Assembly: GCA_022567305.1 (NCBI GenBank)
Contig: JADFHF010000025.1
Coordinates: 1 to 55,677 of the forward strand
Direction of reading: 5' to 3'
Length of the DNA: 55,677 bases
From: Bacteroidota bacterium
GTDB lineage: Bacteria; Bacteroidota; Rhodothermia; Rhodothermales; UBA10348
Positions 14,245 through 34,529 of this stretch are shown one piece after another. A program made the position numbers and the translations under genes. The notes below the pieces were generated by a model. The model did not search any database. It was not told the DNA's origin and was given only the letters and a program-made list of their open reading frames with translations. Each line of letters opens with the position of its first letter. Position 1 is the first letter of the stretch.

Positions 14245-14269
14245 TCAAGCAGCAATAAAGACATTCATC

Positions 14270-15700
14270 ATGCCTGATGATCATATGACCCCGGATGAGT
14301 TTCGGGAGTATGGAAAAGAGGTGATCGACTGGATCGCCGATTATTACAAATGGGTAGAAACGTATCCTGTGCTTTCTCAGGTCAAGCCTGGAGATATTCG
14401 TAGTGGATTGCCGCCCAGTGCACCTCAGAAGGGCGAATCTATGTCTGCGATGCTGGACGACATGGACCATCTCATCATGCCCGGAATAACTCACTGGCAA
14501 TCCCCAAACTTCTTCGCGTTTTATCCTTGCAATAGCTCCGGCCCTGGAATTCTAGGTGAGTTGCTATCTGCCGGGCTAAACGTGCAGGGTATGAATTGGG
14601 TTACGAGTCCGGCCTGCACTGAACTGGAGGCCCACGTGTTGGATTGGCTTGTCGAGATGCTGGACCTCCCGGAGAAGTTCAGATCCACAAACGCGGGTGG
14701 AGGCGTCATCCAGGATACGGCCTCGAGTGCAACGCTCTGTGCTACGTTGGCCGCGCGAGAACGTGCGACGGACGGTCAGTCGAATCATGTTGGAGCAGAT
14801 CATTCGCTGGTTGCTTATGCATCACACGAAAGCCATTCTTCCATTGAAAAAGCCCTTCGCATCGCTGGAATCGGAACTGATCGAATGCGAGTCATTCCCA
14901 CCGATGAATCGTATGCCATGGACGCTCATGAACTGGAAGATCAGATTCTGAGGGACAAGGCCGAAGACTTCAAGCCGTTTATCGTATACGGAACGGTGGG
15001 TTCGACGTCTTCCGGAAGCCTGGATCCACTCGAGTCAATTGGATCGATTTGTCAGCGCGAAGGGATCTGGTTTCACGTAGACGCTGCGATGTTGGGGACC
15101 GCCGCACTCTGTCCGGAATTTCGCTACATACAGGAAGGGCTTGAATACGCGGATAGTTACTGCTTCAATCCGCACAAGTGGATGTTTACCAATTTTGATT
15201 GCGACTGTCTATTTGTTGCCGACCGGAATGCACTTACCCGGGCACTCACGATTAATCGAGAGTATTTGGGAGATTTTCCGTCAAAATCAGCCGGTGAAGA
15301 TAACTACCGCGACTGGCAGATCCCGTTGGGGCGCAGGTTTCGATCGCTGAAACTCTGGTTTGTTATTCGATATTACGGTGTCGAGGGTCTCCAGAAGCAC
15401 ATTCGCGAGCATGTTGAAATGGCGCAAGAATTTGCCCGTTGGGTGGATGACGACCCGAATTTTGAAAGGCTTGCCCCCGTCTCATTGCAGCTCGTTTGCT
15501 TTGCTCATACAGCCGGGAATGACATCACAAAGTCACTCCTGGATTCGATCAATGCCAGCGGGAAGATCTATCTGAGCCAAACCATGCTGCGCGGACGATT
15601 CACGATACGGATCTCGATTGGCCAGGCCAATACCCGGAAGAGGCATGTTCGAGCGGCCTGGGAGTTGATTCAGAAAACTGCGAGGGAACTGGCCCTTTGA
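14270..15700 (+). CDS. PLP-dependent group II decarboxylase (aromatic-L-amino-acid type)
   Basis: A 476-residue pyridoxal-phosphate enzyme closely resembling animal and plant aromatic-amino-acid decarboxylases in length and sequence. The PLP lysine is K303 in FNPHKWMFTNFDCDC. The cofactor-stacking His is present (SHESHSSIEKA, His189), and the PLP-anchoring Asp is in FHVDAAMLGTAALCPEF. The flexible catalytic loop keeps its Tyr (DNYRDW) just before QIPLGRRFRSLKLWF. That Tyr and the His argue for amine formation and not the aldehyde-synthase reaction. It would make tryptamine, tyramine, dopamine or a similar amine; the exact substrate cannot be read off. It lies in an operon between the FAD/Fe-S dehydrogenase (25 bases) and a DAO-type oxidase (13 bases). 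Confidence 0.94.
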   Translation: MPDDHMTPDEFREYGKEVIDWIADYYKWVETYPVLSQVKPGDIRSGLPPSAPQKGESMSAMLDDMDHLIMPGITHWQSPNFFAFYPCNSSGPGILGELLSAGLNVQGMNWVTSPACTELEAHVLDWLVEMLDLPEKFRSTNAGGGVIQDTASSATLCATLAARERATDGQSNHVGADHSLVAYASHESHSSIEKALRIAGIGTDRMRVIPTDESYAMDAHELEDQILRDKAEDFKPFIVYGTVGSTSSGSLDPLESIGSICQREGIWFHVDAAMLGTAALCPEFRYIQEGLEYADSYCFNPHKWMFTNFDCDCLFVADRNALTRALTINREYLGDFPSKSAGEDNYRDWQIPLGRRFRSLKLWFVIRYYGVEGLQKHIREHVEMAQEFARWVDDDPNFERLAPVSLQLVCFAHTAGNDITKSLLDSINASGKIYLSQTMLRGRFTIRISIGQANTRKRHVRAAWELIQKTARELAL

Positions 15701-15713
15701 TGGCACGCAAACT

Positions 15714-16889
15714 ATGACCAACACATATGACGCAATTTTAATTGGGGGCGGCATTATGGGATGCTGCACGGCCCATGAATTGGGTCAGCGTGGATTAAGC
15801 GTCGCGGTCTTGGAGAAAGGACGTATCGGCGACGGGCCTACGGGCGATTCAGTGGCCATTATTCGGCAGCATTATTCCAATCGGCTGACGGCCCGGATGG
15901 CACACTATGGAGTTCGTGTCTTTCACGAGTTCGAGGATCGAATCGGAGAGAGTTGTGGATTTCATCAATCTGGATTCGTGGTTCTTACATCCGAGTCAAA
16001 TAGAACGGGACTCGAATCGAATCTGGCTCTTCAGCGGGAGATTGGAATAGATACGCGAATTATTTCATCTGAGGATTTGTCGGATCTGGTGCCGGAGATG
16101 AACCCGCAACCGGACCTTATCGCCGCCTTCGAGTCCGAGAGCGGCTACGCCGATGCCTGTTTGACGGTCAAAGCATACGCCAACTCGGTAAAGCGACAGG
16201 GTGCGGATTTGTTTGAAGACACGGAGGTGACGGATATTTATTTTTCCGGAGAAAGAGTATCAGGTGTTCGAACACCGAGCGGAGATTTTCAGGCTCCCGT
16301 TGTCATCAACTGTGCCGGTGCGTGGGGAGCCCGGATTGCAGCTATGACCGGTCATGTAATTCCAATCGAATCATGCCGAGCTCAGGTCGCCGTAGTTTCG
16401 AAGCCCAAAGGTTTTAGGTCGGAGTTTCCCGTCGTGATCGACTTCAGTAACGGGTCATATATTCGTCCTCATTCTCGTGAAAGCATATTTGGTGGGCTGG
16501 TCGATCCCACAGAAGCCCATGCGGTCGTGGATCCGGATAACTATAAGAAGAGTGCGGATGCTGACTTTTTGGACAACGTTTCGGACCGACTCGCCGAGAC
16601 CTGGCACGGCTTGAATGAGAGTGACTCCGTTGGCGGGTATGCCTCACTTTATGCGATTACACCCGATTGGCATCCTATTGTAGACGAGGTGCCCGCTGAC
16701 AGCGGCTTCTATATTTGCTCGGGATTTAGCGGGCACGGCTTTAAACTTGCACCGGCAGTGGGTCAAATGACAGCCGATATGATATTGGAGGAGTCGAACC
16801 CTCTGTTTGATCATCGGGCGTTTCGACTCAGCCGATTCGATGAAAATGATTCAGTTATGGGGATTTACAAATTTTCAATTTTGGGGTAA
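15714..16889 (+). CDS. FAD-dependent oxidoreductase, DAO family
   Basis: A 391-residue flavoprotein of the D-amino-acid-oxidase/sarcosine-oxidase/glycine-oxidase superfamily. The Rossmann dinucleotide motif opens the protein (ILIGGGIMGCCTAHELGQRG), followed by ESGYADACLTVKAYANS, VINCAGAWGARIAAMTG and a C-terminal FSGHGFKLAPAVGQMTADMI, where the second FAD-contact segment lies. It is cytoplasmic, with no signal peptide. The substrate is a secondary or D-amino acid or an amine; its position directly after the aromatic-amino-acid-type decarboxylase raises the possibility that the two act in one amine/amino-acid pathway, but this is inference. The stop overlaps the next start (TAATG). Confidence 0.9.
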   Translation: MTNTYDAILIGGGIMGCCTAHELGQRGLSVAVLEKGRIGDGPTGDSVAIIRQHYSNRLTARMAHYGVRVFHEFEDRIGESCGFHQSGFVVLTSESNRTGLESNLALQREIGIDTRIISSEDLSDLVPEMNPQPDLIAAFESESGYADACLTVKAYANSVKRQGADLFEDTEVTDIYFSGERVSGVRTPSGDFQAPVVINCAGAWGARIAAMTGHVIPIESCRAQVAVVSKPKGFRSEFPVVIDFSNGSYIRPHSRESIFGGLVDPTEAHAVVDPDNYKKSADADFLDNVSDRLAETWHGLNESDSVGGYASLYAITPDWHPIVDEVPADSGFYICSGFSGHGFKLAPAVGQMTADMILEESNPLFDHRAFRLSRFDENDSVMGIYKFSILG

Positions 16890-20174: not shown

Positions 20175-21149
20175 TTATTTGGCGGACTTCTTCGCGTCTT
20201 CGATGAACCCGAGGGTCAGCCAATCAGCAAGAAACTGACGGTTATCCCATTGGATGATGCGCAGTTGGTCGCCTCGGTGATTGATATTTCCCAGCTCAAT
20301 CAGGGCTGTTACGGGTTCCGTGTTTCGAAGCATGTAAAGGTGAGAACCTTTTTTCAGGCGACCGCGGTATCCGCGATCCGGACGGATCATGCCGTATTGC
20401 TGACCCATCGTTTCACGCAGTGTCTTGGCCAGTTCAAGGCCCTGCCTGGAGTGGTAGTAGAAATCGACATCTACCTGTTTCGAACGCTCGTAGGAGTCTA
20501 CGTGTAATTCAACGACTCGCTGCAAGCGGGCATTGCTATGTTTGGCTGCAAGGCGATTGATGTCTTTGACACGTTGCCGAAGCCGATCGCGTTGGCTGTC
20601 ACCAATATATTTCCCTCCCAGATGCTTCTCGTCGTGATCAGCGGGAAAGTACTCCAGATCACGAATCCCTTCATCGTCGCGATTCAGGATGTAGACGGTG
20701 GCGCCTTCCGCGATCAAGCCACGAGCCAGGCGCAGAGCAACATCATATGCGTATTCGTCCTCGTAGAGAAACTTACCGTTCCGCTTTCCGATTGCACCTG
20801 GATCTCGACCGCCGTGGCCACCAAGGATGTAGTAGACAATTCCTTTCAACTTGTTGCTTTGAATGGTAATCGTCTTGTAATCGTCTCCGAATATTTCGTA
20901 GGTCTTCGTTACAACAGTAGACGGAAGACTGTAGGCCACACCACTACGGAGTCCCGAGCCGTTGATCAGCTTGTTTGCGTTAAGCTCTCGAAATTCGGCC
21001 AAAATGGCTTTGGTAGGTTCGATTCCATTTCTCGTGAGCAGTCGAAAGATACCTTCGCCCTGCTCTGGGACATCCGTCTGAGATTGAGCAATCGCATTGG
21101 TCGAAACGACAATGAAAAAGATAAAAAGAGGAAGATGCCTAAATTTCAT
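20175..21149 (-). CDS. N-acetylmuramoyl-L-alanine amidase (Amidase_3), exported
   Basis: A 324-residue exported cell-wall hydrolase with a signal peptide (LPLFIFFIVVSTNAIAQSQ). Zinc ligands and the catalytic residue are visible: the first His in YYILGGHGGRDPGAIG, Glu in YEDEYAYDVALRL, the second His in VVELHVDSYER, and the catalytic Glu near the C-terminus in TALIELGNINHRGD. The order and spacing match AmiC/CwlV-type amidases, which cut the amide bond between MurNAc and the stem peptide. The region before the catalytic domain (about 25-100) lacks a LysM or AMIN domain that I can recognise. It is a single gene, convergent with the HiPIP gene and divergent from the NRPS locus. Confidence 0.9.
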   Translation of the reverse strand: MKFRHLPLFIFFIVVSTNAIAQSQTDVPEQGEGIFRLLTRNGIEPTKAILAEFRELNANKLINGSGLRSGVAYSLPSTVVTKTYEIFGDDYKTITIQSNKLKGIVYYILGGHGGRDPGAIGKRNGKFLYEDEYAYDVALRLARGLIAEGATVYILNRDDEGIRDLEYFPADHDEKHLGGKYIGDSQRDRLRQRVKDINRLAAKHSNARLQRVVELHVDSYERSKQVDVDFYYHSRQGLELAKTLRETMGQQYGMIRPDRGYRGRLKKGSHLYMLRNTEPVTALIELGNINHRGDQLRIIQWDNRQFLADWLTLGFIEDAKKSAK

Positions 21150-21562
21150 GCTCGGGCTAGTCGGCTGAGCGAGTGTTGAAAATTTAATCTTGTTATCGAC
21201 TGTTTGAGGCGAAAATCAAACGTTTGGGATATATAAAAAACCTTTGGGATGGTCGGATTCGGAGGTAATAGAAACAACTCCTCTCAGCGCATCTATATTC
21301 CTAACAATTAACCTCGGGTGCAGAAGAGAGCTATTGGATCTTACAGATAGAGTGGTCTTTTGTGAATGGGTTCCGCAAGATCCGAACCCGAGAACGCCGA
21401 GCTAACGGCTTCAACTGGCTCGTTGGGAAAACAGTTTCGACGCGGAATAAGCCTCCAAGGCATAGTTTTTGAGAAACAGAGATTCACCGATTTACGACTA
21501 ATCGACACGGATTAGCGAGACGGCGTACCTAATCAAACGACGCATCAACGAATTCGACAATT
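21150..21562. other. Intergenic region upstream of the NRPS locus
   Basis: This is about 410 bases between the divergent amidase and NRPS genes, and it must hold both promoters. The first ~110 bases are AT-rich. There is a short inverted repeat near 21208-21227 (GTTTGA and TCAAAC around an 8-base loop). I see no recognisable riboswitch, no RNA gene and no convincing consensus promoter; Bacteroidota-type -33 TTTG / -7 TAnnTTTG boxes were looked for without a clean match. Confidence 0.4.
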
Positions 21563-21574
21563 TTGAACCTACAG

Positions 21575-23428
21575 ATGAAACTGGTTGGAACGATTTCGGG
21601 AATATTAAAGTCGAATGCAGAAACGCGACCGAATGGACATGCTGTACTTGCTCTCGAAAGGCCCGCTCTGACGTACAAAGGACTGTTCAAACACATTTCG
21701 GACACCGTAAGTGCTCTGAACGCAATTGGGCTAACCCGAAATGACCGGTTAGCAGTGGTCCTTCCAAATGGCCCCGAAATGGCGACAGCGTTTTGTTCCT
21801 TTTCATCCGGGTTTTCCTGTGCCCCTCTGAATCCGTCGTTTCAGGCACCCGAATTCGATTTTTACCTTTCTGACCTAAACGCGAAAGCAGTGATCGTACA
21901 AGCCGAATTCGATTCTCCGGTGCGCGATGTAGCTACGAGATTGGGCGTGTCCGTAATCGAACTTAATCCAGATTCGTCCTGTTCAGGCCTCTTTTCTTTA
22001 AGTCACGAAGATGAAACTCTCGAGAAACACGACCCTCCCGAATTTTCTGGACGATTAGACGAAGCTCTCGTCCTTCATACGTCGGGAACGACATCTCGAC
22101 CCAAGTTGGTACCGCTCTCGCACGAGAACCTGGTTGTCTCGGCCGTAAATATATCCGAATCACTGGCGCTATCTGATCGAGACGTATGCATGAACGTGAT
22201 GCCACTTTTTCACATTCACGGATTGATGGCAAGTGTTCTGGCATCATTCCAAGCCGGCGCGGGTGTTGTCTGTACGCCAGGATTCTCCGCAAGGTCATTT
22301 CTAAAGCAGCTTTCGACCACTGGTGCAACATGGTACAGTGCGGTACCCACTATGCATCAGGCCATTGTTGGACGGGCTCAAGCTAATCCGTCTTCGACCC
22401 ACAAGATCAATCTTCGATTTATTCGATCGTCGTCGGCGTCTTTGGCTCCCACTGTCATGCACGATCTGGAGCATATTTTTGGCGTACCCGTGATCGAATC
22501 ATACGGGATGACGGAAGCCTCGCATCAGATGACGAGTAACCCATTACCTCCTCTTGAGAGGAAGCCAGGTTCAGTCGGACTCGCGGCAGGTCCCGACGTA
22601 TCTATCATGATTGACGGAGGCGTGGTTGTTGGGCCCAATCAGGTTGGGGAAATCGTCATTCGCGGGAAAAATGTGACGGCTGGCTCCTCAGAAAACCCCG
22701 AAGCGAATGCGCTTGCATTTACAAACGGTTGGTTTCGCACGGGGGATCAGGGATACCTGGATGATGACGGGTATTTAAAGATCACGGGTCGCCTGAATGA
22801 AATCATTAATCGAGGTGGAGAGAAGATTTCTCCTCGGGAGATCGATGAGGTGCTCTTGGAGCATCCGTCGGTTCGTCAAGCCGTCGCCTTTGCGGTTTCA
22901 GACCCGAACACCGGTGAGGAAGTAGCTGCTGCCGTAGTTCTTGAGGCGGGTAGCAAAGTGGGTGAGCGAGAGCTTCAGGATTTCGTTGCCGAAAGACTGG
23001 TCGACTTCAAGATTCCTCGCCGGGTTGTTTTTCTAGATGAGATTCCCAGAGGACCGACCGGAAAACTGAGGCGGATCGGCTTGGCTGATCAACTTAAAAT
23101 TCGGGGTGAACTTCCACGTCAAAGTTCATACGGCCAAGTCGGAGATACCGAAGATCCAAACACCGACACGGAGCAGACGATGTTAACGATATGGAAAAAC
23201 ATTCTGAAGCTCGAAAATATCGGCTTAAAAGACGAGTATCTGAGTTTGGGAGGTGATTCGATCCTGGTCGGTCAGATACTCAATCGCGTAGAATCCGAAC
23301 TGGGTGCTCGACTGTCTATCATAGATTTTTTTGGCTTGCCGACTGTTCGCCGGCTCGCAAAAAGAGTTGACGCTATCAAAGCCCTGTCATCAGAATCGTC
23401 ACACACCGCGTCTTCTTCCCAGGTATAG
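21575..23428 (+). CDS. NRPS-like A-T didomain protein 1 (acyl/aryl-acid adenylation + carrier protein)
   Basis: A 617-residue protein. An AMP-binding domain of the acyl-CoA-synthetase/4-coumarate-ligase-like branch (about 10-510: A3 loop LHTSGTTSRPKLVPLSH, ESYGMTEASHQM, WFRTGDQGYLDDDGYL, GRLNEIINRGGEKI, catalytic Lys in RGPTGKLRR) is joined to a peptidyl/acyl carrier domain (about 535-605; phosphopantetheine Ser562 in LSLGGDSILVGQ). With no condensation domain it is a candidate loading module or a stand-alone carrier loader. ATG 21575 is preferred over the upstream TTG (21563). It is the first gene of a four-gene NRPS locus and a tandem paralogue of the next gene. The substrate is probably a carboxylic acid rather than a standard amino acid; that is inference. 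Confidence 0.9.
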   Translation: MKLVGTISGILKSNAETRPNGHAVLALERPALTYKGLFKHISDTVSALNAIGLTRNDRLAVVLPNGPEMATAFCSFSSGFSCAPLNPSFQAPEFDFYLSDLNAKAVIVQAEFDSPVRDVATRLGVSVIELNPDSSCSGLFSLSHEDETLEKHDPPEFSGRLDEALVLHTSGTTSRPKLVPLSHENLVVSAVNISESLALSDRDVCMNVMPLFHIHGLMASVLASFQAGAGVVCTPGFSARSFLKQLSTTGATWYSAVPTMHQAIVGRAQANPSSTHKINLRFIRSSSASLAPTVMHDLEHIFGVPVIESYGMTEASHQMTSNPLPPLERKPGSVGLAAGPDVSIMIDGGVVVGPNQVGEIVIRGKNVTAGSSENPEANALAFTNGWFRTGDQGYLDDDGYLKITGRLNEIINRGGEKISPREIDEVLLEHPSVRQAVAFAVSDPNTGEEVAAAVVLEAGSKVGERELQDFVAERLVDFKIPRRVVFLDEIPRGPTGKLRRIGLADQLKIRGELPRQSSYGQVGDTEDPNTDTEQTMLTIWKNILKLENIGLKDEYLSLGGDSILVGQILNRVESELGARLSIIDFFGLPTVRRLAKRVDAIKALSSESSHTASSSQV

Positions 23429-23665
23429 GTCTGTACAAGTCGACCTTACTTCCAACATATTTTTAACGATGTAATCCTAAGTCGTTAATTGTATTGATTT
23501 AGCGTATACTCGAACGGCGAATTACCGCTGTAACACCCTTCGTTCCAGACACACAGGTGAGGCACAATTTTTGAAAGTCACCACCACGTGATCCCACATT
23601 CGATGTTTAGGGCGATGTGGTCCGATCTCTTAGCCGGCAAACGGTCATTCAGGACCTAAAGAAAA

Positions 23666-25522
23666 ATGAAAGAAGCTTCCATTCCCGGAATTATTAAGGC
23701 ACATGCGGAACAGAGACCGGATAATCTAGCCATCCTATCGATCAACAGAGCACCGATGACGTACGGCCAGCTTCAGAGACAGACTTCGGCCGTCGTTGGT
23801 AGTCTGAACGGCTTGAACATAGGGAGAGGAGACCACGTTGCAGTTGTTGTTCCGAGCGGTCCCGAGATGGCAACGGCATTTCTGACTATCTCTTCGGGAG
23901 CCACTTGCGTACCGCTAAATCCGGCGTTTAAACGGTCTGAGTTCGATTCCTATCTCTCCGATCTGGATACCAAAGTAGTGGTCGTTCAGTCTGGATTTGA
24001 TTCGCCAATTCGAGATGTCGCGAAGGAGCAAAATATTCGAGTATTAGATCTAATTCCCGACGCCGACATTTCTGGTGTTTTCGAGTTGACGCTGAACGGG
24101 GAGATACTCTCATTGGATAATTCGGCCCCGAGAGTTTTTTCGAAGCCCGAAGACGTTGCCATGATCCTCTTCACATCGGGCACGACCTCTCAGCCAAAGA
24201 AAGTGGCAATCGGGCACCTCCATTTAGACATGTCTGCCGACGCAAGGATTCAGATATTCTCGCTTACTGAACAGGATCGCTGCCTAAACGTGATGCCGTA
24301 TTTTCATGTACACGCGCTCAAAACTTGTCTCCTGACGACTATGAAGGCAGGAGGAAGCATGTTTTGTACAAACGGATTTTCACCTTCTTCATTTTTCGAA
24401 ACCCTGGCGTTGTCGCAGGCTTCCTGGTATAGCGCCGTGCCGACCGTTCACCAGACAATTCTGGCGCGAGCGGAAAATTCAGAAATGGTCGAAAAGTACC
24501 CGCACCTCAGATTTATTCGTTCAACATCGGCCGGTCTAGCTCCAGATACCTTAGAGAAGCTCGAAGATCTGTTCAACGTGCCTGTAATAGAAACCTATGG
24601 GATGACTGAGACTTCTCATACGCTTGCGTCCAATTCCCTTCCTCCAGCCATAAGAAAATCAGGTTCTGTAGGCCCGGCTTCTGGTCCAGAGCTCGCCATC
24701 ATAGATACGAACGGGGGGTTCCTAGAAGTGCGGGAAACCGGAGAAATTGTGGTACGTGGTGATGAACTCGAATGCGGATATATGGATGATGATGAAGCGA
24801 ACGAGAAGTCATTCATTAACGGATGGTTTCGAACAGGCGATCTCGGATACCTCGATGAAGATGGCTATTTGTTTATTACTGGGCGCCTAAAAGAAGTAAT
24901 TAATCGCAGTGGGGAAAACATTATACCAAAAGAAATTGACGACGTCCTTTTGCGTCATCCTGCAGTTCGTCAGGCGGTAACGTTCGCAGTTCCGGACGAA
25001 CTAGCCGGTGAGGAGGTGGCCGCTGCGATCATTCTAGAAGAAACCGAAACGGTCCTAGAGCGCGAGTTACAAGATTTTTGTTCTGTGCACCTCGTTGATT
25101 CGAAGGTACCGAGACGAATTATTTTTCTGGCTGAGATTCCGAAAGGCCCATCGGGAAAGGTGATGCGAATCGGACTGGCCGAGCATCTTGGGATGGATTC
25201 GGTAAACGACCAAGTATCGAACAGAAACCCAGGAGTATCCAAGGTCCCTGAATTAGAGAATCCCAATACACCGACAGAAGAACATCTCGTAGAGGTCTGG
25301 AAAGACGTACTGGGTCTTTCGGAATTAGGAGTTACACAAGAATTCCTAAACGTAGGGGGTGATTCTATTCAGGTCGGGCAGATCCGCGCTAAGGTCGAAG
25401 ATGAATTTGGAGTCGAGTTGTCCTTTATCGACTTCTTTGGTTCACCAACCGTAAGAGACTTATCGGGTGTGATTGACAACATGCTCGCGAACGGCTTACG
25501 ATCGGGCCAGAATCCATGTTGA
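23666..25522 (+). CDS. NRPS-like A-T didomain protein 2 (paralogue of protein 1)
   Basis: A 618-residue didomain protein built like the preceding one and clearly derived from the same ancestor: adenylation domain (about 5-505; LFTSGTTSQPKKVAIGH, ETYGMTETSHTL, WFRTGDLGYLDEDGYL, GRLKEVINRSGENI, catalytic Lys in KGPSGKVMR) plus a carrier domain with Ser567 in LNVGGDSIQVGQ. The pair share stretches such as GPEMATAF and ASWYSAVPT/TWYSAVPT. Substrate-pocket regions differ (HVHALKTCLLTT here, HIHGLMASVLAS in protein 1), so the two may load different acids. The gap from protein 1 is 237 bases, long enough for its own promoter; the next gene starts 46 bases later. Confidence 0.9.
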   Translation: MKEASIPGIIKAHAEQRPDNLAILSINRAPMTYGQLQRQTSAVVGSLNGLNIGRGDHVAVVVPSGPEMATAFLTISSGATCVPLNPAFKRSEFDSYLSDLDTKVVVVQSGFDSPIRDVAKEQNIRVLDLIPDADISGVFELTLNGEILSLDNSAPRVFSKPEDVAMILFTSGTTSQPKKVAIGHLHLDMSADARIQIFSLTEQDRCLNVMPYFHVHALKTCLLTTMKAGGSMFCTNGFSPSSFFETLALSQASWYSAVPTVHQTILARAENSEMVEKYPHLRFIRSTSAGLAPDTLEKLEDLFNVPVIETYGMTETSHTLASNSLPPAIRKSGSVGPASGPELAIIDTNGGFLEVRETGEIVVRGDELECGYMDDDEANEKSFINGWFRTGDLGYLDEDGYLFITGRLKEVINRSGENIIPKEIDDVLLRHPAVRQAVTFAVPDELAGEEVAAAIILEETETVLERELQDFCSVHLVDSKVPRRIIFLAEIPKGPSGKVMRIGLAEHLGMDSVNDQVSNRNPGVSKVPELENPNTPTEEHLVEVWKDVLGLSELGVTQEFLNVGGDSIQVGQIRAKVEDEFGVELSFIDFFGSPTVRDLSGVIDNMLANGLRSGQNPC

Positions 25523-25568
25523 GTATTACCATACCAAACAGTTAACGATTAAATAGCACAACTACAGC

Positions 25569-28500
25569 GTGATACAAGATTTTAAGGTCCCCACTACCTC
25601 TGCCGACGGTTTCGACAAGAATGATCGTAAAAGCGAAATCCAGAAAAGCGAACCGTCATTTGCACAGGAACGCCTGTGGTTCTTAGACAAATACGAAAAT
25701 GAAGAGAATGTCGCTTACAACAGCTCTTTTGCGGTAAGCGTTGACGGGATGTTGAATGTTCACGCTTTCGAACGGGCACTGGATGAAATCTATCGTCGCC
25801 ACGAAGTTCTGCGGGCGTATTTCATTGAAGAGGATGGACGTCCAGTAATGGCTGTGCGTGCTTCTAACTCGTTTCTGCTAAAGCACGTCGATCTTAGCGA
25901 ACTCTCCGAACCGACTCGATCAGAGAAACTCGAAGAAGTATTAAGAAAGGGACTCGGGGCTTCATTTCGTCTAGCCACGGGGCCACTCGTTCGCGGATAT
26001 TTAATTCGACTTCGAAATGATTCGCACGTTTTTTTGTTGGTCATCCACCACATTATAACTGACGGTTGGTCGAATCAGATTTTTCGATCCGATTTATCCG
26101 CATTGTATTCGGCGTACATCGAAGGGCAGTCGTCAGCGCTCGAACCACTGCCTGTTCAGTATTCTGAATATGCGGCATGGCAGCGAGGGCGACTGAAAGA
26201 TGACATTCTAGCGAGAAAAACTTCCTATTGGAGCGAGTACTTGGCGAGTCCTCGATCCACACTAGATCTACCGACAGACCGTCCACGACCCGCCATTCAA
26301 GCGTTTCGTGGAACAACACAGTCGTTCAGTCTCGATCGTGAATTAAGCGAGCGTATTCGCCTACTAGGCAGAAAACAGGGTGTAACCCTCTTCATGACGT
26401 TGGTGGCAGCGTTCAAGACGCTTCTTTTTCGATATACGGGAGAGCCCGACGTGATTATCGGGACGCCCGCAGCAAATCGTTTACGTAGCGAATATGAATC
26501 GCTGATCGGTTTTTTTGCAAATACGCTGACTCTTAGGACGGATTTTAGCGATGACCCAACATTTTCCGAACTCGTTATTCAAGTACGAAACTCGTCACTG
26601 AAATCGCTCGAACATCAGGATATGCCATTCGAGTTACTCGTGGCCGAGCTCTCACCCGTCCGTGACCTGAGCCGAAATCCACTCTTTCAAGTGATGTTTG
26701 CCCTGCAAAACGTTCCTCAACGTGGATTAGAGCTTCCAGGACTTCAGGTTGAACGATTCATCGTGCGTGGCAACAGCACTAAGTTTGATCTTACGTTAAA
26801 TGTATTTGACGAGCCTGCCGGCCTCAGAGGTAGCATCGAATTTAGTACGGATCTGTTTGACGCATCGACAATCGATAGAATGATCGGGCACTTCGAGATG
26901 CTTCTGTTGGGAATTGTCGAGAATCCCGATGAGCACGTATCGCGACTCCCGCTAATAAGCAGAGAGGAGCGCAACGTACTCATAGATGAATTCAACAGTA
27001 CGGCTGCCGACTATCCATCAGATAAGAATGTCCACAGTCTAGTTAGTGAGCAGGTGGCACGCACACCTGATCGAACAGCTGTAGTATTTGAGACTGAACA
27101 TCTTTCGTATTTAGAACTGGAACAAAGGTCGAATCGGCTTGCGCATTATCTGCGAGATAGTGGAGTTGCGCCCGGTGATCTAATAGGAGTCTGTCTGAAC
27201 CGTTCTGCAGACCTGGTGGTGGCTTTACTTGGAATCTTGAAGACAGGAGCTGCCTATGTCCCAGTTGATCCAGACTTTCCGACTCGGCGCATTGGCTATA
27301 TGATAGAAGACGCTGAGATGCACTACATGGTAACAGAGGACGCGCTGTGTTCAAGATTGTCTGACCACGAGTTACATTTTGTATGCTTGGATACCGATAA
27401 GAAATCGATTGAATTGATGAGTTCGGATTCCGTCCCGCTCGAAATCTCGAGTGAGTCCCTTGCCCATGTCATATTTACATCAGGATCGACAGGAAGACCG
27501 AAAGGTGTTCAGATTTCTCATCGTGCTTTTGTGAATTTCCTCACGTCAATGCAAAGCGAGCCTGGCTTCGCCGAAAATGACGTAATTCTGAGTATTACAA
27601 CTCCATCGTTTGACGTGGCGGGTCTCGAGCTATTTCTGCCGCTGATGTGTGGTGCAAAAACGGTAATCCTGTCCGAAAAAGTTGCGGGCGATGGAAAGCT
27701 TCTAGCAAAAGCACTCGATGATCATTCGGCGACCGTGTTACAGGCGACGCCAGTGACTTGGCGCTTATTGGTCGACTCGGGATGGGAGGGACGACCAAAT
27801 CTTAGAATGTTTTCCGGAGGGGAAGCGCTACCAAAAACACTTGTCGAATCACTCACCGGTAAAGGTGCCGAGCTATGGAATATGTACGGCCCAACTGAAA
27901 CGACAGTTTACTCTTCGATAGAGAAAATCCAGAATAGTGCTGATCTGGTATCTATCGGGCGACCCATCGCAAATACACAAATGTACATTCTCGATAATGA
28001 ACTCGAACCGGTACCGATTGGTGTAGAGGGTATGCTTTATATCGGTGGCGATGGACTAGCAGACGGATACGTGAGTCGTGATGAACTAACAGATGCTGTA
28101 TTCATAACGAACCCGTTTGGGAAAGGTCGGATTTACAAGACAGGGGATCGCGCTAAACGGCTTTACGACGGACGACTCGTTTGTCTTGGCCGAGACGACA
28201 CTCAGATAAAACTACGGGGATTCCGAATAGAATTTGGTGAAATCGAGCATGTCTTAAATCAATACGAACACATTCGCTCCTCGGCCGTGGTTATTCGTGA
28301 GGATACACCTGGAGACCAAAGGCTTGTAGCCTACATCGTAACCAATAGTAAATCGGACACAAGCGAGCTACTCCTCTTTCTTCGAGACCAACTTCCCGAG
28401 TATATGATTCCTTCAGCCTTCGTCTATCTAGACGAGTTACCGGTAACTCCGAATGGAAAGGTTGATAGAAAGGCACTTCCTGAGCCAGATGAAATAAGAC

Positions 28501-28751
28501 CAGAGTTATTTCAAAGTTACACGGCTCCGAAAACGGCAATTGAAAGGGCCATTGCTGAGATCTGGAGTGAGGTTCTTAGGCTTGATCGGGTTGGAGTCGA
28601 TGATGGCTTTTTCGACCTCGGAGGACATTCTCTGCACGCCATTCAGGTACAATCGCGTGTACGAGAGTATTTAAAGAAGGAACTGCCACTCAAGGCCATA
28701 TTTGAATATCCAACCATTGTTCGATTAGCCCGGTTTATAGATACTCTGTAG
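25569..28751 (+). CDS. Nonribosomal peptide synthetase, C-A-T module 1
   Basis: A 1060-residue single NRPS module with a GTG start (MIQDFKVPTTSADG). The condensation domain (about 25-450) is complete, with the catalytic HHIITDGWS near residue 160 and DLSRNPLFQVMF near 375. The adenylation domain (about 475-970) has IFTSGSTGRPKGVQISH, NMYGPTETTVYSS, KTGDRAKRLYDGRL, the catalytic Lys in TPNGKVDRKALP, and an Asp in PSFDVAGLELF at the position that binds the alpha-amino group of amino acids. The carrier domain has Ser1021 in LGGHSLHAIQV. There is no epimerase and no thioesterase. It should add one alpha-amino acid; by-eye pocket residues (D-V-L-V-F-G-M-V-Y-K) match no code I know with confidence. 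Confidence 0.93.
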   Translation: MIQDFKVPTTSADGFDKNDRKSEIQKSEPSFAQERLWFLDKYENEENVAYNSSFAVSVDGMLNVHAFERALDEIYRRHEVLRAYFIEEDGRPVMAVRASNSFLLKHVDLSELSEPTRSEKLEEVLRKGLGASFRLATGPLVRGYLIRLRNDSHVFLLVIHHIITDGWSNQIFRSDLSALYSAYIEGQSSALEPLPVQYSEYAAWQRGRLKDDILARKTSYWSEYLASPRSTLDLPTDRPRPAIQAFRGTTQSFSLDRELSERIRLLGRKQGVTLFMTLVAAFKTLLFRYTGEPDVIIGTPAANRLRSEYESLIGFFANTLTLRTDFSDDPTFSELVIQVRNSSLKSLEHQDMPFELLVAELSPVRDLSRNPLFQVMFALQNVPQRGLELPGLQVERFIVRGNSTKFDLTLNVFDEPAGLRGSIEFSTDLFDASTIDRMIGHFEMLLLGIVENPDEHVSRLPLISREERNVLIDEFNSTAADYPSDKNVHSLVSEQVARTPDRTAVVFETEHLSYLELEQRSNRLAHYLRDSGVAPGDLIGVCLNRSADLVVALLGILKTGAAYVPVDPDFPTRRIGYMIEDAEMHYMVTEDALCSRLSDHELHFVCLDTDKKSIELMSSDSVPLEISSESLAHVIFTSGSTGRPKGVQISHRAFVNFLTSMQSEPGFAENDVILSITTPSFDVAGLELFLPLMCGAKTVILSEKVAGDGKLLAKALDDHSATVLQATPVTWRLLVDSGWEGRPNLRMFSGGEALPKTLVESLTGKGAELWNMYGPTETTVYSSIEKIQNSADLVSIGRPIANTQMYILDNELEPVPIGVEGMLYIGGDGLADGYVSRDELTDAVFITNPFGKGRIYKTGDRAKRLYDGRLVCLGRDDTQIKLRGFRIEFGEIEHVLNQYEHIRSSAVVIREDTPGDQRLVAYIVTNSKSDTSELLLFLRDQLPEYMIPSAFVYLDELPVTPNGKVDRKALPEPDEIRPELFQSYTAPKTAIERAIAEIWSEVLRLDRVGVDDGFFDLGGHSLHAIQVQSRVREYLKKELPLKAIFEYPTIVRLARFIDTL

Positions 28752-28852
28752 TTCGGACGAAAGTGCGCCCATCTCAAGCAAAAGAATGCGGCGCTCCTTT
28801 TGATCAACCATCCCACCTCACGTAGATATTTCGCGGCTTTAATAGTTGGAAT

Positions 28853-31800
28853 ATGTCCATCCCTCACATTTCTCGCCGAAATCCAGAAGACGTAACGCGG
28901 CTCTCGTTTGGACAGCAGCGGCTATGGTTTTTGGATCAGCTCGATCCCGGCAGGCCCACGTTCAGCATTCCAGCCGCCTATCAGATTGACGGGTCTGTAA
29001 ATTTTTCTATTCTCGAAGAGTGCTTCTCCGAACTGGTCAGGCGTCACGAGTCGCTACGCACCCATTTTGGCGTTGTTGCTGGCGAACCCGTTCAACTCGT
29101 CGTAGATCCATTTTCAGTACAAATCGATGTAGTGGATCTCTCTGTATTCGCTGAAAAGGAACGAGAATCAGAGGCGCTTAGGCGTATTGGCGAAGAGAGT
29201 ATGCTTCCTTTCGATATTTCGACTGCGCCGCTTTTTCGTGTCAAAGCGTTTCTCTTCAGTGGTGACCGATGCCTTCTGTTTCTCTGTATGCACCATGCTA
29301 TCTCAGATGGTTGGTCCATGAAAGTCTTGTTCGAAGAGCTGTCATCTTTATACGGGACGATTTCTAAAGGAAAACCCAGTCGTCTTCCCGAACCGGAAAT
29401 GCAATATGGCGACTTTTCCGAGTGGCAGCACGATTGGCTTCAGGAAGAGGAGCTTCGAGAAGATCTGGATTTCTGGACGGAAAACCTCAAGGACGTTTCC
29501 GAATTGGAATTACCAACGGATATTTGTCGATCCGACATTCATCGGTACGTCGGCGCATCCGAATCCATCGAACTTTCAAAGGAGCAGACAAATTCAATCA
29601 AGAGGTTTAGCGCCAATGAAGCGGTCACTGTGTTCATGACGCTACTTGCTACCTACAAGATCTTACTCTTTCGCTATTCCGGTCAGGAGGACATAGTGGT
29701 CGGAGCCCCCATTTCAGGGAGGAACCGATTAGAAACTGAGCAGATGATTGGTCTCTTCCTGAATATGATACCTCTTCGCACTCAGCTCACAGGCGACCTG
29801 ACGTTTTTAGAGCTTTTGAAACGCGTTCGAGGAGTTAATTTGGACGCGTATGTACACCAGAATCTACCATTCGAAAAGCTGATCGAGGTGCTAAGTCCAG
29901 AGCGCAATTTGGACCGTGAGCCGATAATCAGTTCGATGGTCAATTTCTTACCGCCATCGTGGAGACATCTCGATCTTGACGGTATGGTGGTCAAGAGACT
30001 TCATCTCGAAAATCGTTCAGCACATCTTCCGCTATCACTCTATGTCGGTGAGGAGTCAGGTCGTCTCTTCATACGCTTCGTGTATCAGTCAGCAATATTC
30101 AGTTCAGAAGGCATGAAGTGCATTGTTGAGCAATACGAATATTTGCTGGAACAGATCATTGCTGACCCAGAAAAGCGTTTGTCAGATTACTCGCTCGTGA
30201 CGGTGAAGGCTACGACCATTCTCCCGAATCCTACTCAAAAGCTAGACGAACCATACCACCAACCCGTCCCAGAACAGTTTCTGTCAAAGGCGTTGATCAC
30301 GCCTGCCGCCACTGCAATTTCATGCGGAGACCGAACATGGAGCTACCTGGATCTGGAAGAATCGTCAAGGAAAGTAGCCACAGAGCTTCTCTCAAACGGG
30401 CTTGAGAAAGGCGATGTCGTTGCTGTTGACGGGTCGTCGTACTTCGCGTTGGTGGCTTGCATTTTAGGAGTGATTCGGAGTGCAGGCGTCCTTCTGATAC
30501 TTGATTCTGAGCTGCCAAACTTGAGAAAGGAGATCATGCTTGAGGAGGCCGCTGCAAAATGGACTCTGACACCGGTTGATGACCACGACGTGGTACGGCT
30601 GTGTACGCTTCCAGACTCGAATGATAATAGCGTTTTCATCCACATTGAACGATCACAGGATTCTACGGATCAGCAGCGTATCAGCGATGCTGAAACAGCC
30701 AACGAGCTTCCCGTTATCGATGCCGCGGCCGCCGCATATATCTTTTTCACATCTGGAACAACAGGAATCCCTAAAGGGGTTTTGGGAAGTCATAAGGGAT
30801 TGAGTCATTTTCTGGACTGGCAGCGGGAATCGTTCGATGTCGGTCCAGACGATCGTGTCGCCCTGCTTTCGGGATTGTCCTTTGATCCTGTTTTACGAGA
30901 TATATTTTTACCGCTCACCAGCGGTGCTACACTTTGTATACCGGAGACGGGAGTCAAATACGATTCCGGTGCTGTCTTGGACTGGCTCGAGATGGAGAAG
31001 ATTACCATAGTCCATGCTGTTCCGACGATTGCCCAACTATGGTTGTCCAAAGCGACGGGTGAAAGTCGAAGTCACACACTTCGACACGCCTTCTTTGCCG
31101 GAGAGGTGTTGACGGATGACCTCGTAAAGAAATGGCGCCGAGTTTTCCCGGGCTGCGAAATCAATAATATCTATGGTCCGACAGAGACGACGCTCGTCAA
31201 GTGTTGTTATCGCGTACCGACTGAAATGAGGGAAGGAGTACAGCCACTTGGAACGCCACTTCCTCAGACGCAGATACTGATTATGACCGAATATAATCAG
31301 ATGTGTGGATTCCGAGAGTCAGGAGAGATCGTCATACGGACACCATTTCGGTCAATTGGATACGTCAATGAGAACTCTGGAATCGGCCGATGTTTCGAGC
31401 AAAACCCGTTCAGACTTGACGATAGCGACTTATTGTATTATACCGGCGACAGCGGTCGGTACTGCGCTGACGGAACGCTGGAGATATTGGGACGTCTCGA
31501 CGATCAGATCAAAATTCACGGAGTCCGGATCGAACCGGACGAAATCACGGCGTCTCTGACGAGTCATCCGGACGTGGAATCATGCATTGTAATAGTCAGC
31601 AATAATGAGAACGGAGATCCGTTTTTGACGGCTTATATCGTGGCTGAAACTGCGGAAGCGATCGATCGTGCTGCCTTGCGGACGTACTTGAGCGAGCGAT
31701 TGCCTTCGGCGATGATTCCGGCGTCAATCGTATTCTTGTCGGAGATGCCGTTTACCCCGAATGGAAAAGTAGACCGAAAGGCGCTGCCGGCGCCCGATGA

Positions 31801-32083
31801 GGAGTTTCTTGTTCTCCAATCCGATTACGTGACACCTCGTTCACCAGAGGAAGAAAAAATTGCCTCAATTTGGCGAGAAATATTAGGTCGGGAACAGATC
31901 GGTGCACATCAAAATTTCTTCGATTTGGGAGGTCATAGTCTTGCGGCCGTTCAGGTTATCAATCGACTAAGACACGAATTCAACGTCGAACTCCCGCTTC
32001 GAGTGATCTTTGAGGCCCAGACGGTTTCGCAGCTAGCGGCGCGTATTTCAGCTGGAGAATTCGATCAACACTCAGGTTCCTAA
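28853..32083 (+). CDS. Nonribosomal peptide synthetase, C-A-T module 2
   Basis: A 1076-residue module: condensation domain (about 10-440; MHHAISDGWSM near 147), adenylation domain (about 465-985; FFTSGTTGIPKGVLGSH, NIYGPTETTLVKC, YYTGDSGRYCADG, catalytic Lys in TPNGKVDRKALP) and a carrier domain (Ser1029 in LGGHSLAAVQV), ending in a short tail without thioesterase or reductase. The adenylation core 'GLSFDPVLRDIFLPL' differs from the usual amino-acid form and resembles the FDPxxRDIF segment of alpha-aminoadipate reductase (Lys2) and related domains. As the last enzyme of the locus it would carry the full-length product, yet no release domain is encoded. It ends 70 bases from the convergent membrane protein gene. 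Confidence 0.93.
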   Translation: MSIPHISRRNPEDVTRLSFGQQRLWFLDQLDPGRPTFSIPAAYQIDGSVNFSILEECFSELVRRHESLRTHFGVVAGEPVQLVVDPFSVQIDVVDLSVFAEKERESEALRRIGEESMLPFDISTAPLFRVKAFLFSGDRCLLFLCMHHAISDGWSMKVLFEELSSLYGTISKGKPSRLPEPEMQYGDFSEWQHDWLQEEELREDLDFWTENLKDVSELELPTDICRSDIHRYVGASESIELSKEQTNSIKRFSANEAVTVFMTLLATYKILLFRYSGQEDIVVGAPISGRNRLETEQMIGLFLNMIPLRTQLTGDLTFLELLKRVRGVNLDAYVHQNLPFEKLIEVLSPERNLDREPIISSMVNFLPPSWRHLDLDGMVVKRLHLENRSAHLPLSLYVGEESGRLFIRFVYQSAIFSSEGMKCIVEQYEYLLEQIIADPEKRLSDYSLVTVKATTILPNPTQKLDEPYHQPVPEQFLSKALITPAATAISCGDRTWSYLDLEESSRKVATELLSNGLEKGDVVAVDGSSYFALVACILGVIRSAGVLLILDSELPNLRKEIMLEEAAAKWTLTPVDDHDVVRLCTLPDSNDNSVFIHIERSQDSTDQQRISDAETANELPVIDAAAAAYIFFTSGTTGIPKGVLGSHKGLSHFLDWQRESFDVGPDDRVALLSGLSFDPVLRDIFLPLTSGATLCIPETGVKYDSGAVLDWLEMEKITIVHAVPTIAQLWLSKATGESRSHTLRHAFFAGEVLTDDLVKKWRRVFPGCEINNIYGPTETTLVKCCYRVPTEMREGVQPLGTPLPQTQILIMTEYNQMCGFRESGEIVIRTPFRSIGYVNENSGIGRCFEQNPFRLDDSDLLYYTGDSGRYCADGTLEILGRLDDQIKIHGVRIEPDEITASLTSHPDVESCIVIVSNNENGDPFLTAYIVAETAEAIDRAALRTYLSERLPSAMIPASIVFLSEMPFTPNGKVDRKALPAPDEEFLVLQSDYVTPRSPEEEKIASIWREILGREQIGAHQNFFDLGGHSLAAVQVINRLRHEFNVELPLRVIFEAQTVSQLAARISAGEFDQHSGS

Positions 32084-32153
32084 ATCGGATACGTGTTTCC
32101 AATTCTCGCACTTAAAAACGTGAATATATTTTTGTTATTTAAGGACAATGACC

Positions 32154-34529
32154 TTACCCCGTCCTGACGCTCACGATCGCCACAAGCCCGTACGCTGCAA
32201 CCGCAAATAACATCACAGCCACAAATCCGAGTTCGACGGCGAGAATGGCTGCCAAGGCGGTGCTTATCACCGAGAAACATCCATTGATACCCCACGCCCA
32301 TGGAACCTGCGCATCGCTACGGGTCGAGAGGAAACGAAGTCCAACGGGGAAAGGTATTCCCATGAAAAACGTGGGAGGCGCAATCAAAACGAAGGCAAGA
32401 ATCACTTTCCAGACGGTCGGTAGCGCAATCGTCGCTTTCAGTAACGGTGTAAGAAAAACGACGTACGGAAGAAGAATAAGGGCGACGAATCCGGCAGCCC
32501 GCATTACTGTACGCCGCTCGGGCTTCAGGCGTTCGGAAAAGAGACTGCCGGCTCCGGAGCAAATGAACAAGGTAGCCAACACGGCCGCCGTAGCGTAAAT
32601 CGGGTGGCCTAGATACAAAGTGAATCGCTGAATCAGGACGATTTCGACGAAAAGGTAGCCCAATCCCAGGCCACCGAAATAGCTAATCGTCCAGGCTTGT
32701 CCGGGACCGCGCCACCCGAGACGAAATAGAGGAATGATGATTAATAGGAGCGCGGCCAGGAAAATCTGAATAAAGGTGACTCCCGTTATCAGATATCCGA
32801 CTTCAAGAAACGGAAACGTCTGCGATCCGAACTGATCAAGCAATTGTGGCAAGTGACGCCATCGTAGGAATCGTGAGAAATACGGTCGATTGTCGGTTGT
32901 CGGTCGAATGTCGAAGTCGTAGGCCTCGTAGAGCTGGTCCCGCTCGCTCGAGAATATCTGATCCACGTACTCGAAAAAACGCTCGTCCTGGACAGCGTTG
33001 AATTCGGCTCGTTCCTCCCGGTCGAGGCCAGGAAGTAGAAGCGGATCAAATGACGAACGACTCGAGAAAGCGCGAATTCTTTCTACTTCGTCTGCTGTGA
33101 AGGCTGATCGCGCAACAACGATCGTTACGGATCCCCAGCTACGGACAGCCACCATATGGTCTGCTGTATTTTTGACGCCTGCTTCATCAAGAACTTCAAC
33201 CAAACTTGCCAGCATTTTCAGAATGTAGCGGTATGGGTAGTCCATCCACACCGTAATGCTGAGCGCGCCGGTGGAACTCAGCCGATCCCACATCGCACGA
33301 AGACCTTGCGTCGTTAGCAGGTACTGCTCCTGCATCGCGGATAATCCCACGGTTCCGCCAAAAGCTCCCACGGCCGGAATGGTTATCACGTCGTATCTCG
33401 ACGAATCAGTAGCCAGCATGGCTCGGGGCTCCAGCTTGAGAACCGTAATTTCATCCCGATAGAAGAGTGAATCGGTAAACTCAGTCAGCTCAGAGCGCAT
33501 CAGCCCGACCAGAGATTCATGGGGTTCTACGACCACAATCCGCGTGGCGCCGTTCGCTAATGCGTGAGCGATTTCGTCTCCCGTTCCCGCGTTTAATGCC
33601 AGGACCGATCTTCTCTTACGGATAACGTACGGCAGCGCAGAAGTTGTGTGGTCCAGAATGTGGGTGCTGTCGCCCGGCATCCATGCCGTAACAGGCCCAA
33701 CCCAGTCGCCGTTGTTGAACACACCCCGTTGGGCTGGAATATCGACTGGATCGCTCAGGCTCATTCCGGGAGCGAAGCGGAGCGCTGAGGAGGACACTAC
33801 CTGTAGAAGTCCCTGAGGACTGTTGCGCTCTAACTCGATCCGCGCATCGGGAAGCGTAAGGGTTCGGCTCAAGCTCTTGTATTGGGACAGAATGGGCTCC
33901 GGACGTACAAGTAGCGCAACGTGCACCAGGGTCAACGCAAAAATTCCGAGTGCGACGGGTATGCGCGCTTTCCGCTTTGGTATGATGAGTAAGCCAGCCA
34001 AAACGGCCAGAAGTCCTGCGAGTGCGGGCAACTGTTCGGCGTCGATGTTCCAAAGCAAGACGAGCGCTACGAGGCCGCCCACCCCCGATCCAAGCAAATT
34101 GGCGAAATAGTAACTCCCTATTTGCTCGACGTGCTTGATCAAGGTGAGGCCTATCGCAAGCGCAGCAAAAAAGAACGGAATGAAGAAGAGTAGATAGCTG
34201 AGGAAGAGAGATGCGACCTGAGCAGCATCCACGAACAACAGATACGAGTCAAAACGGGCGACCGAGGTTTGCGATAATCCGAAGACCCAGGCCATCGAGG
34301 CGCCGCTCGCCATCATGAGCGCAGGCAAAAGCGATTCGAATCGATCGAGCAACCACGTCCGCGCGAGCGCTATGACCGTCCCACTTGCACCGAAACCCAA
34401 AAGCGCAACCGAGATCACCATGTAGGCGAAATGATACCACTGCACGATGGAGAGCAGGTGCATCAGTATCAACTGATAGGCAATGACCGCAGCTGACAGC
34501 GCTCCAATAGATGTGTGCAGGCGAGTCAT
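32154..34529 (-). CDS. Polytopic membrane protein with spermidine-synthase-like domain
   Basis: A 791-residue integral membrane protein. About six hydrophobic helices at the N-terminus (residues 5-215; LSIVQWYHFAYMVISVALLG begins the pattern) are followed by a soluble SAM-methyltransferase-fold/spermidine-synthase-like domain (about 300-460; VLALNAGTGDEIAHAL, RIVVVEPHESL, TDNRPYF) and a second block of helices (about 560-790). It belongs to the group of fused membrane 'spermidine synthase-like' proteins of unknown reaction; the acidic aminopropyltransferase residues are not clearly kept, so real polyamine synthesis is doubtful. It is convergent with the last NRPS gene, 70 bases away. It could be unrelated to the NRPS locus, and nothing shows that it acts as an exporter. 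Confidence 0.82.
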   Translation of the reverse strand: MTRLHTSIGALSAAVIAYQLILMHLLSIVQWYHFAYMVISVALLGFGASGTVIALARTWLLDRFESLLPALMMASGASMAWVFGLSQTSVARFDSYLLFVDAAQVASLFLSYLLFFIPFFFAALAIGLTLIKHVEQIGSYYFANLLGSGVGGLVALVLLWNIDAEQLPALAGLLAVLAGLLIIPKRKARIPVALGIFALTLVHVALLVRPEPILSQYKSLSRTLTLPDARIELERNSPQGLLQVVSSSALRFAPGMSLSDPVDIPAQRGVFNNGDWVGPVTAWMPGDSTHILDHTTSALPYVIRKRRSVLALNAGTGDEIAHALANGATRIVVVEPHESLVGLMRSELTEFTDSLFYRDEITVLKLEPRAMLATDSSRYDVITIPAVGAFGGTVGLSAMQEQYLLTTQGLRAMWDRLSSTGALSITVWMDYPYRYILKMLASLVEVLDEAGVKNTADHMVAVRSWGSVTIVVARSAFTADEVERIRAFSSRSSFDPLLLPGLDREERAEFNAVQDERFFEYVDQIFSSERDQLYEAYDFDIRPTTDNRPYFSRFLRWRHLPQLLDQFGSQTFPFLEVGYLITGVTFIQIFLAALLLIIIPLFRLGWRGPGQAWTISYFGGLGLGYLFVEIVLIQRFTLYLGHPIYATAAVLATLFICSGAGSLFSERLKPERRTVMRAAGFVALILLPYVVFLTPLLKATIALPTVWKVILAFVLIAPPTFFMGIPFPVGLRFLSTRSDAQVPWAWGINGCFSVISTALAAILAVELGFVAVMLFAVAAYGLVAIVSVRTG

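Follow-up and report, generated by a model that had tools for sequence, protein, structure and literature searches.

A four-gene nonribosomal peptide synthetase operon of a Rhodothermales bacterium with a probable oxalate starter

Which acid starts the product of a small nonribosomal peptide synthetase (NRPS), and how does that product leave an assembly line that has no release domain? These questions are raised by an operon of four genes, denoted AT1, AT2, CAT1 and CAT2, at positions 21575-32083 of contig JADFHF010000025.1 (assembly GCA_022567305.1) from a Bacteroidota bacterium of the Rhodothermales. The whole stretch of 55,677 nucleotides is referred to as the window, and it lies in contig C100 of a draft genome of 3.76 Mb in 115 contigs, 95.6% complete. 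Comparing sequences and gene neighbourhoods, we consider it probable that the operon encodes a small NRPS with an oxalate starter; its substrates, release step and product are all inferred from such comparisons.

AT1 (21575-23428, plus strand; adenylation (A) core 21611-22684, carrier (T) domain 23177-23368) joins an A domain resembling oxalyl-coenzyme A (CoA) synthetases to a carrier protein; its reading frame is 21563-23428 with a TTG start, and an in-frame ATG stands at 21575. AT2 (23666-25522, plus strand; A core 23696-24781, T 25283-25471) is a tandem sister of AT1 with an altered pocket. Both consist of AMP-binding, AMP-binding_C and PP-binding domains in Pfam, and a condensation (C) domain precedes the same three in CAT1 (25569-28751, plus strand, GTG start; C 25656-26981, A 27045-28070, T 28548-28739) and CAT2 (28853-32083, plus strand; C 28889-30205, A 30299-31363, T 31853-32047). 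The Pfam E-values, from 2.7e-9 to 2.7e-106, exclude chance for these assignments. HHxxxDG is present in both C domains, and all four A domains carry SGTT or SGST and the A10 lysine (GPTGK, GPSGK or NGKVD); the carrier serine (GGDS or GGHS) is found in four of four T domains. By its C, A and T domains with their core motifs the operon is an NRPS, the order A-T / A-T / C-A-T / C-A-T with catalytic motifs that the original prediction had given agrees with both Pfam and the motif check, and the locus looks functional.

The best solved-structure matches of AT1 are the oxalate-CoA ligases of Arabidopsis (1.6e-120), grass pea (1.4e-119) and yeast (9.2e-110), while the best solved enzyme outside this group reaches 3.8e-58. 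When AT1 was modeled with AlphaFold from 16 sequences (mean pLDDT 78.6, pTM 0.71), the top eight folds were oxalyl-CoA synthetases at 38-43% identity, followed by a malonyl-CoA synthetase chimera at 26%. The query-normalised TM-scores of those eight folds were modest (0.55-0.65), probably due to a different placement of the two A-domain parts in the model. To compare acid pockets, we read the ten pocket-lining positions of the usual A-domain code; the columns come from sequence alignments at code positions and not from ligand contacts. AT1 reads HGASIRSSHQ, the Arabidopsis and grass pea enzymes read HGATIRSAHL, and yeast Pcs60 reads HGGSIRSAHQ, so that AT1 matches the positions common to the three solved oxalate enzymes save for one Ala/Ser swap. 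The Arabidopsis and yeast enzymes are reported to be strict for oxalate (PMC9485241).

Relatives of AT1 were taken from 80 loci, fetched because they resemble the query and match two peptide patterns; 48 are ligases without a T domain (standalone) and 32 are fused to one. The pocket count covers 69 of the 80 loci, the window and one further genome of the class, G072; other solved ligases were compared with AT1 by score only. Six of the ten positions (H, G, R, S, H and Q) never vary among the 36 standalone rows, nor among the 22 rows from A-T proteins that are either multimodular or shorter than 800 aa; in four of these 22 (L027, L041, L068 and L073) the A-T protein stands alone, no C domain being seen. 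The Ala/Ser swap of AT1 recurs in 15 of the 22 A-T rows and 13 of the 36 standalone rows. Among A-T proteins above 800 aa, three of 11 rows deviate from the family pocket (L052 twice, and L055), and five of five other non-NRPS AMP-binding ligases from the genome of the window read differently. The acid of AT1 is thus most likely oxalate or a close analogue, as judged from the pocket and the nearest relatives. The original prediction had described the A-T proteins as of acyl/aryl-acid type; acid activation holds, but a generic acyl or aryl acid fits less well than oxalate. As a separate observation, L052:9064-15516 (Nostoc sp. 106C) contains a tandem pair of long A-T proteins resembling AT1 and AT2, both off the family pocket, one of them without either pocket histidine.

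The pocket of the oxalyl-CoA synthetases is not kept in AT2. It reads HATSIRSTHT, with four of the ten residues unlike those of the family, and none of the other 71 rows has this sequence. A tree of A-T proteins, in which 20 of the 36 standalone A domains were included, places AT1 and AT2 as sisters (support 95/95), with a branch of 1.21 for AT2 versus 0.62 for AT1. AT2 would then be a duplicate of AT1 whose changed pocket loads a different small acid, or none; it would serve as a second starter or else be a copy that is drifting.

The carrier-free relatives stand among genes that point to oxalate. Counting only frames of at least 150 codons within 3 kb, a PanE/ApbA-like reductase (named from the Pfam assignment of one example) neighbors 43 of 48 standalone ligases and none of the 32 fused loci. 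The PanE of Methylobacterium extorquens is described as an oxalyl-CoA reductase (PMC9485241). An antiporter-like gene lies near two of the 48 standalone ligases (L062 and L063) and near no fused locus. A search of plasmids returned AT1 relatives in 15 records, all below 60% identity, and gave a Methylobacterium bullatum locus (L119) with an antiporter, a fumarylacetoacetate-hydrolase-like gene (judged by eye), a PanE-like gene and a ligase. Its antiporter scores 629.7 bits against a cut-off of 335 for TIGR04259, the oxalate/formate antiporter family, and that of L062 also passes. In a Rhodobacteraceae record (H1), the ligase is followed by a gene annotated as 2-dehydropantoate 2-reductase. Because of the PanE-like and antiporter neighbors, it is very probable, by analogy of context, that the closest relatives without a carrier are oxalyl-CoA synthetases.

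Seven of the 32 fused loci, and none of the 48 standalone ones, have as a neighbor a protein of the ICL/PEPM superfamily that carries an RPRRCGH lyase-type motif. The seven are L025, L026 (split), L028, L033, L035, L075 and L076; the count of neighbors of at least 150 codons catches five of them, as the copies in L075 and L076 are 116-codon pieces. These last two are near-identical A-T loci in metagenome-assembled genomes that bear the labels Verrucomicrobia and Acidobacteria, so one of the two may have been binned wrongly. The best solved relatives of the ICL/PEPM-type protein are a protein named carboxyvinyl-carboxyphosphonate phosphorylmutase, the petal death protein and dimethylmalate lyase, and a solved oxaloacetate acetylhydrolase ranks 13th of 16. 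Of the four enzymes aligned with the L025 copy, the petal death protein alone shares one serine with it; this serine may be the marker of oxaloacetate hydrolases, and we keep it as a lead, the solved hydrolase 3lye lying outside the aligned set. The fungal oxaloacetate hydrolase is a member of the ICL/PEPM superfamily (PMC12006162), and its product is oxalate (PMC9485241). By analogy, it is plausible that the ICL/PEPM-type protein supplies oxalate in the fused loci.

We compared the modules of CAT1 and CAT2 with those of the relatives. The A-domain code of CAT1 is DVLQMSMVY, and the first modules of a Xenococcus cluster (L039) and a Bryobacterales cluster (L047) read DILQICLIW and DIVQISVIY, respectively; all three are near the glycine code. 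The first modules of most other relatives have different codes, such as DAEDVITVV and DLFNVLLTY, and therefore few clusters have a glycine-like first module. CAT1 is closest to the first module of L039, at 46.8% over 1087 columns. The code of CAT2 is DPRHAFILV, and that of the second module of L039 is DPRHAFFQV; DPRH is also part of the Lys2 code. The aminoadipate reductase family TIGR03443 is second best for the CAT2 A domain (261.5 bits, behind 329.2 for the generic amino-acid adenylation model) and the best NCBIfam match of the second A domain of L039 (427.6 bits), and it ranks 11th for CAT1 (206.7 bits). However, differently coded A domains score nearly as high as CAT2, namely the first of L039 (235.3) and L042 (234.4), so a Lys2-like label for CAT2 is weak. 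The best relatives of CAT2 are, in order, the first module of L042_8, L097 and the second module of L039, and its C domain joins that of L042_8 (93/86) with the second module of L039 next (89/76).

On their tree, the C domains that come straight after A-T proteins group together, with two changes versus a shuffle mean of 12.0 and none of 500 shuffles as low. Flipping the label of the CAT1 C domain costs nothing, and a tree that holds all 17 together is not rejected (p-AU 0.07); the placement of CAT1 outside the main group is weakly supported, and we dropped the tree as proof that CAT1 accepts an oxalyl group. An acidic LS(E/D)EEA-like motif, which resembles a docking helix, occurs in nine of the 16 A-T tails listed and is absent from AT1 and AT2.

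Based on these comparisons, AT1 would adenylate oxalate and load its own T domain, since the fused carrier suggests transfer to T instead of CoA. CAT1 would join a small amino acid, by its code most likely glycine, to the oxalyl thioester, and CAT2 would attach one further unit. If glycine is correct, the intermediate would be an N-oxalylglycyl thioester, with the skeleton of N-oxalylglycine. N-oxalylglycine is a mimic of 2-oxoglutarate and a broad inhibitor of 2-oxoglutarate oxygenases. That the operon makes an N-oxalylglycyl peptide, as an NRPS that delivers a 2-oxoglutarate-mimic warhead by a strategy common to L039 and perhaps L047, is a tentative proposal that we hold to be unlikely.

Several observations weigh against oxalate as the starter and against the steps that follow it. 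The conservation of the pocket is partly selected, given how the 80 relatives were chosen, and 11 of the 80 loci lie outside the pocket count. The last pocket position is Leu in the plant enzymes and Gln in AT1, so it can be no requirement. Both A-T proteins missed the cut-off of 650 bits of the NCBIfam FadD7 family (NF004511), with 409.5 for AT1 and 377.3 for AT2. PanE is by name a ketopantoate reductase family, the L119 copy is so named in NCBIfam, and it is linked to the M. extorquens enzyme by family. The ICL/PEPM-type protein falls under every NCBIfam cut-off in the two copies tested, and in the genome of the window its sole match, at 24.9 bits, is no close copy. The amino-acid codes are interpreted by general rules, and a text search of the literature for three reference specificity codes returned no paper. 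Lastly, the CAT1 C domain pairs with L075/L076 (71/87), away from the main group of those behind A-T proteins, and its top identity (48%) is with that of L037_12, which follows no A-T protein.

Alternatively, the A-T proteins could have only the fold of the oxalyl-CoA synthetases in common with them and activate another small acid, such as glyoxylate, glycolate, malonate or pyruvate. The four altered pocket positions of AT2 and the malonyl-CoA synthetases among the next folds of the AT1 model would suit such an acid, and the loss of both pocket histidines in two long A-T relatives (L052_7 and L055) indicates that the pocket can change. However, AT1 itself departs from the solved oxalate enzymes by the single swap at their common positions, and the gene context of the standalone relatives indicates oxalate. 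We therefore regard another acid as the lesser prospect, though one with a real share, and oxalate remains the preferred starter.

As for release, CAT2 ends directly after its T domain without a thioesterase (TE), reductase or terminal C domain, which bears out the earlier statement that a release domain is missing. The downstream gap (32084-32153) of 70 bases to a convergent gene leaves no space for a TE or its remnant. The relatives differ in this respect. A terminal TE is present in all five NRPS-type relatives scanned to the end of the last protein (L031, L037, L039, L047 and L081), which were picked for long last proteins, those of the others being cut by the fetched stretch or outside the scan. 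Both of the long A-T proteins scanned, L024 and L033, have one too. TE-less release would therefore be peculiar to the window copy and not a trait of the family, the fused TE of the scanned relatives being absent from the operon. Because the TE of the relatives is missing here, we propose that the product would leave the last carrier via a trans-acting hydrolase or a nucleophile.

Elsewhere in the genome, PP-binding has eight matches: the operon accounts for four, a protein on C55 for two and a protein on C99 for one, and the last is in a 149-codon frame on C73 that is probably an ordinary acyl carrier protein by its size. The C55 protein (L015:9238-15846) has 2202 aa in the order formyltransferase / partial C / A / T / KS / AT / T and adjoins a DUF6875 protein, and that of C99 (L016:8794-13932) is a polyketide synthase (AT, KR, DH, ER-type and T) whose start is missing at the contig end. 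Neither line has a TE after its final T domain, so trans-acting release may be general in this organism. A genome-wide PF00975 search found no TE on any assembly line of the draft genome; its three matches are on C85, C107 and C45, contigs that lack any PP-binding match. Of these, two pass the cut-off of 26.4, with 36.7 and 26.8 bits in frames of 300 and 283 codons, and the free-standing C85 and C107 proteins could be candidates for trans-acting release. An AMP-binding ligase is encoded some 1 kb away from the C85 protein; our guess is that the two are a MenH/MenE pair. PF01648 has one match, a 209-aa Sfp-like phosphopantetheinyl transferase (PPTase) on C107 (L019:1483-2112), without a second match such as AcpS, and this single enzyme may serve all carriers. 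The check proposed in the original prediction, for a PPTase and a free-standing TE elsewhere in the genome, thus turned up one of the former and two candidates for the latter above cut-off. An MbtH-like protein, reported as missing nearby, has no match even genome-wide.

The missing TE could also mean that the cluster is decaying or non-productive, with the TE lost, AT2 degenerate and no product made. Such decay would fit the lack of a domain that the scanned NRPS-type relatives have, the longer branch and altered pocket of AT2, and the rarity of such proteins in the class, as an AT1 relative at E 1e-120 was found only in this genome and in G072 among the 244 genomes of the class searched. We judge it improbable, because four long reading frames are open, every core motif looked for is intact, and two further assembly lines of the genome end likewise in T without a TE. 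An ordinary lipopeptide or siderophore NRPS capped with an aryl or fatty acid, which the wording of the original prediction would allow, is more improbable still: stand-alone A-T loading of an acid before C-A-T modules is the general layout of such systems, but oxalate ligases outscore those families by far, which removed such a starter as first choice (2.1e-43 for the 2,3-dihydroxybenzoate (DHB) ligase 6e8o against AT1), DHB_AMP_lig is outside the best 25 NCBIfam families of AT1 (of 108) and AT2 (of 107), and siderophore genes were not seen among the scanned neighbors.

A-T proteins of this kind followed by C-A-T modules occur in cyanobacteria, Gemmatimonadota, Planctomycetota, Acidobacteriota, Verrucomicrobiota, Bacillota and other phyla, so the layout that had been called unusual is shared, and it is the two A-T proteins and the lack of a TE that set the window apart. 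In G072 (L017:3951-8590), a lone A-T protein of the oxalate type stands after a hexapeptide-type protein (Pfam below cut-off) and before a glycosyltransferase (by eye) and a PIG-L deacetylase, a sugar-type cluster, as if the acyl group were transferred to a sugar. The operon was likely acquired sporadically, as we infer.

The operon is flanked on both sides by minus-strand genes, at 20175-21149 and 32154-34529, and its G+C content is 0.488 versus 0.513 for the remaining window. The promoter would be expected in the upstream intergenic region (21180-21574), where a scan for sigma-70-type sites gave none on the plus strand. Eighteen proteins of the window (four of the operon and 14 others) were scanned with Pfam. 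A DDE_Tnp_1_4 transposase is encoded at 42770-44176, about 10 kb downstream of the operon. Upstream, 11314-16889 encodes a FAD-linked oxidase/Fe-S fusion, a PLP-dependent decarboxylase and a DAO-type FAD oxidoreductase; oxidases of this type can yield 2-oxo acids, and a tie to the operon is only speculative.

Among the open-access papers listed, judged by titles and abstract starts, we found no NRPS with an oxalate starter. The earlier remark that no described pathway with this layout is recognised holds in that sense, and the layout does recur in clusters of which we found no description. Should AT1 load oxalate, the starter unit would become predictable for a whole set of A-T proteins in cyanobacteria, Acidobacteriota, Chloroflexota, Gemmatimonadota, Planctomycetota and other groups. 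Because oxalyl amides are able to bind metals as chelators and to imitate 2-oxo acids, the products could act as enzyme inhibitors; we found no bacterial report of inhibitors of this kind.

Compared with known systems, AT1 is like the oxalyl-CoA synthetases (Arabidopsis AAE3, grass pea OCS and yeast Pcs60) in A-domain fold and pocket. Those enzymes are free-standing and transfer oxalate to CoA, whereas AT1 and AT2 carry their own T domains within an NRPS operon. DHB or salicylate ligases, the aryl-acid starters of the EntE/DhbE type, are not the closest family of AT1. Lys2 and other aminoadipate reductase A domains share DPRH and the TIGR03443 match with CAT2, which has no reductase domain. 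The A-T-TE relatives L024 and L033 have the same A-T pair with a fused TE and, unlike the window, no C domain; presumably they make a small product on one protein. The clusters of L037 (Gemmatimonadota) and of L039 and L031 (Xenococcaceae), of which we found no description, likewise combine an oxalate-type A-T protein with two C-A-T modules, and the codes of L039 are related to those of CAT1 and CAT2. They have one A-T protein and a terminal TE, in contrast with the two A-T proteins and missing TE of the window, and some other fused loci have an ICL/PEPM-type gene. Oxalyl amide chemistry is also known from plants, in beta-ODAP (PMC9485241) and in the N-oxalylglycine reported from rhubarb and spinach (PMC9939733). 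The plant route to beta-ODAP uses oxalyl-CoA and a BAHD-type synthase, not an NRPS; the proposed product of the operon would have the oxalyl amide in common with the plant compounds while being built on an assembly line.

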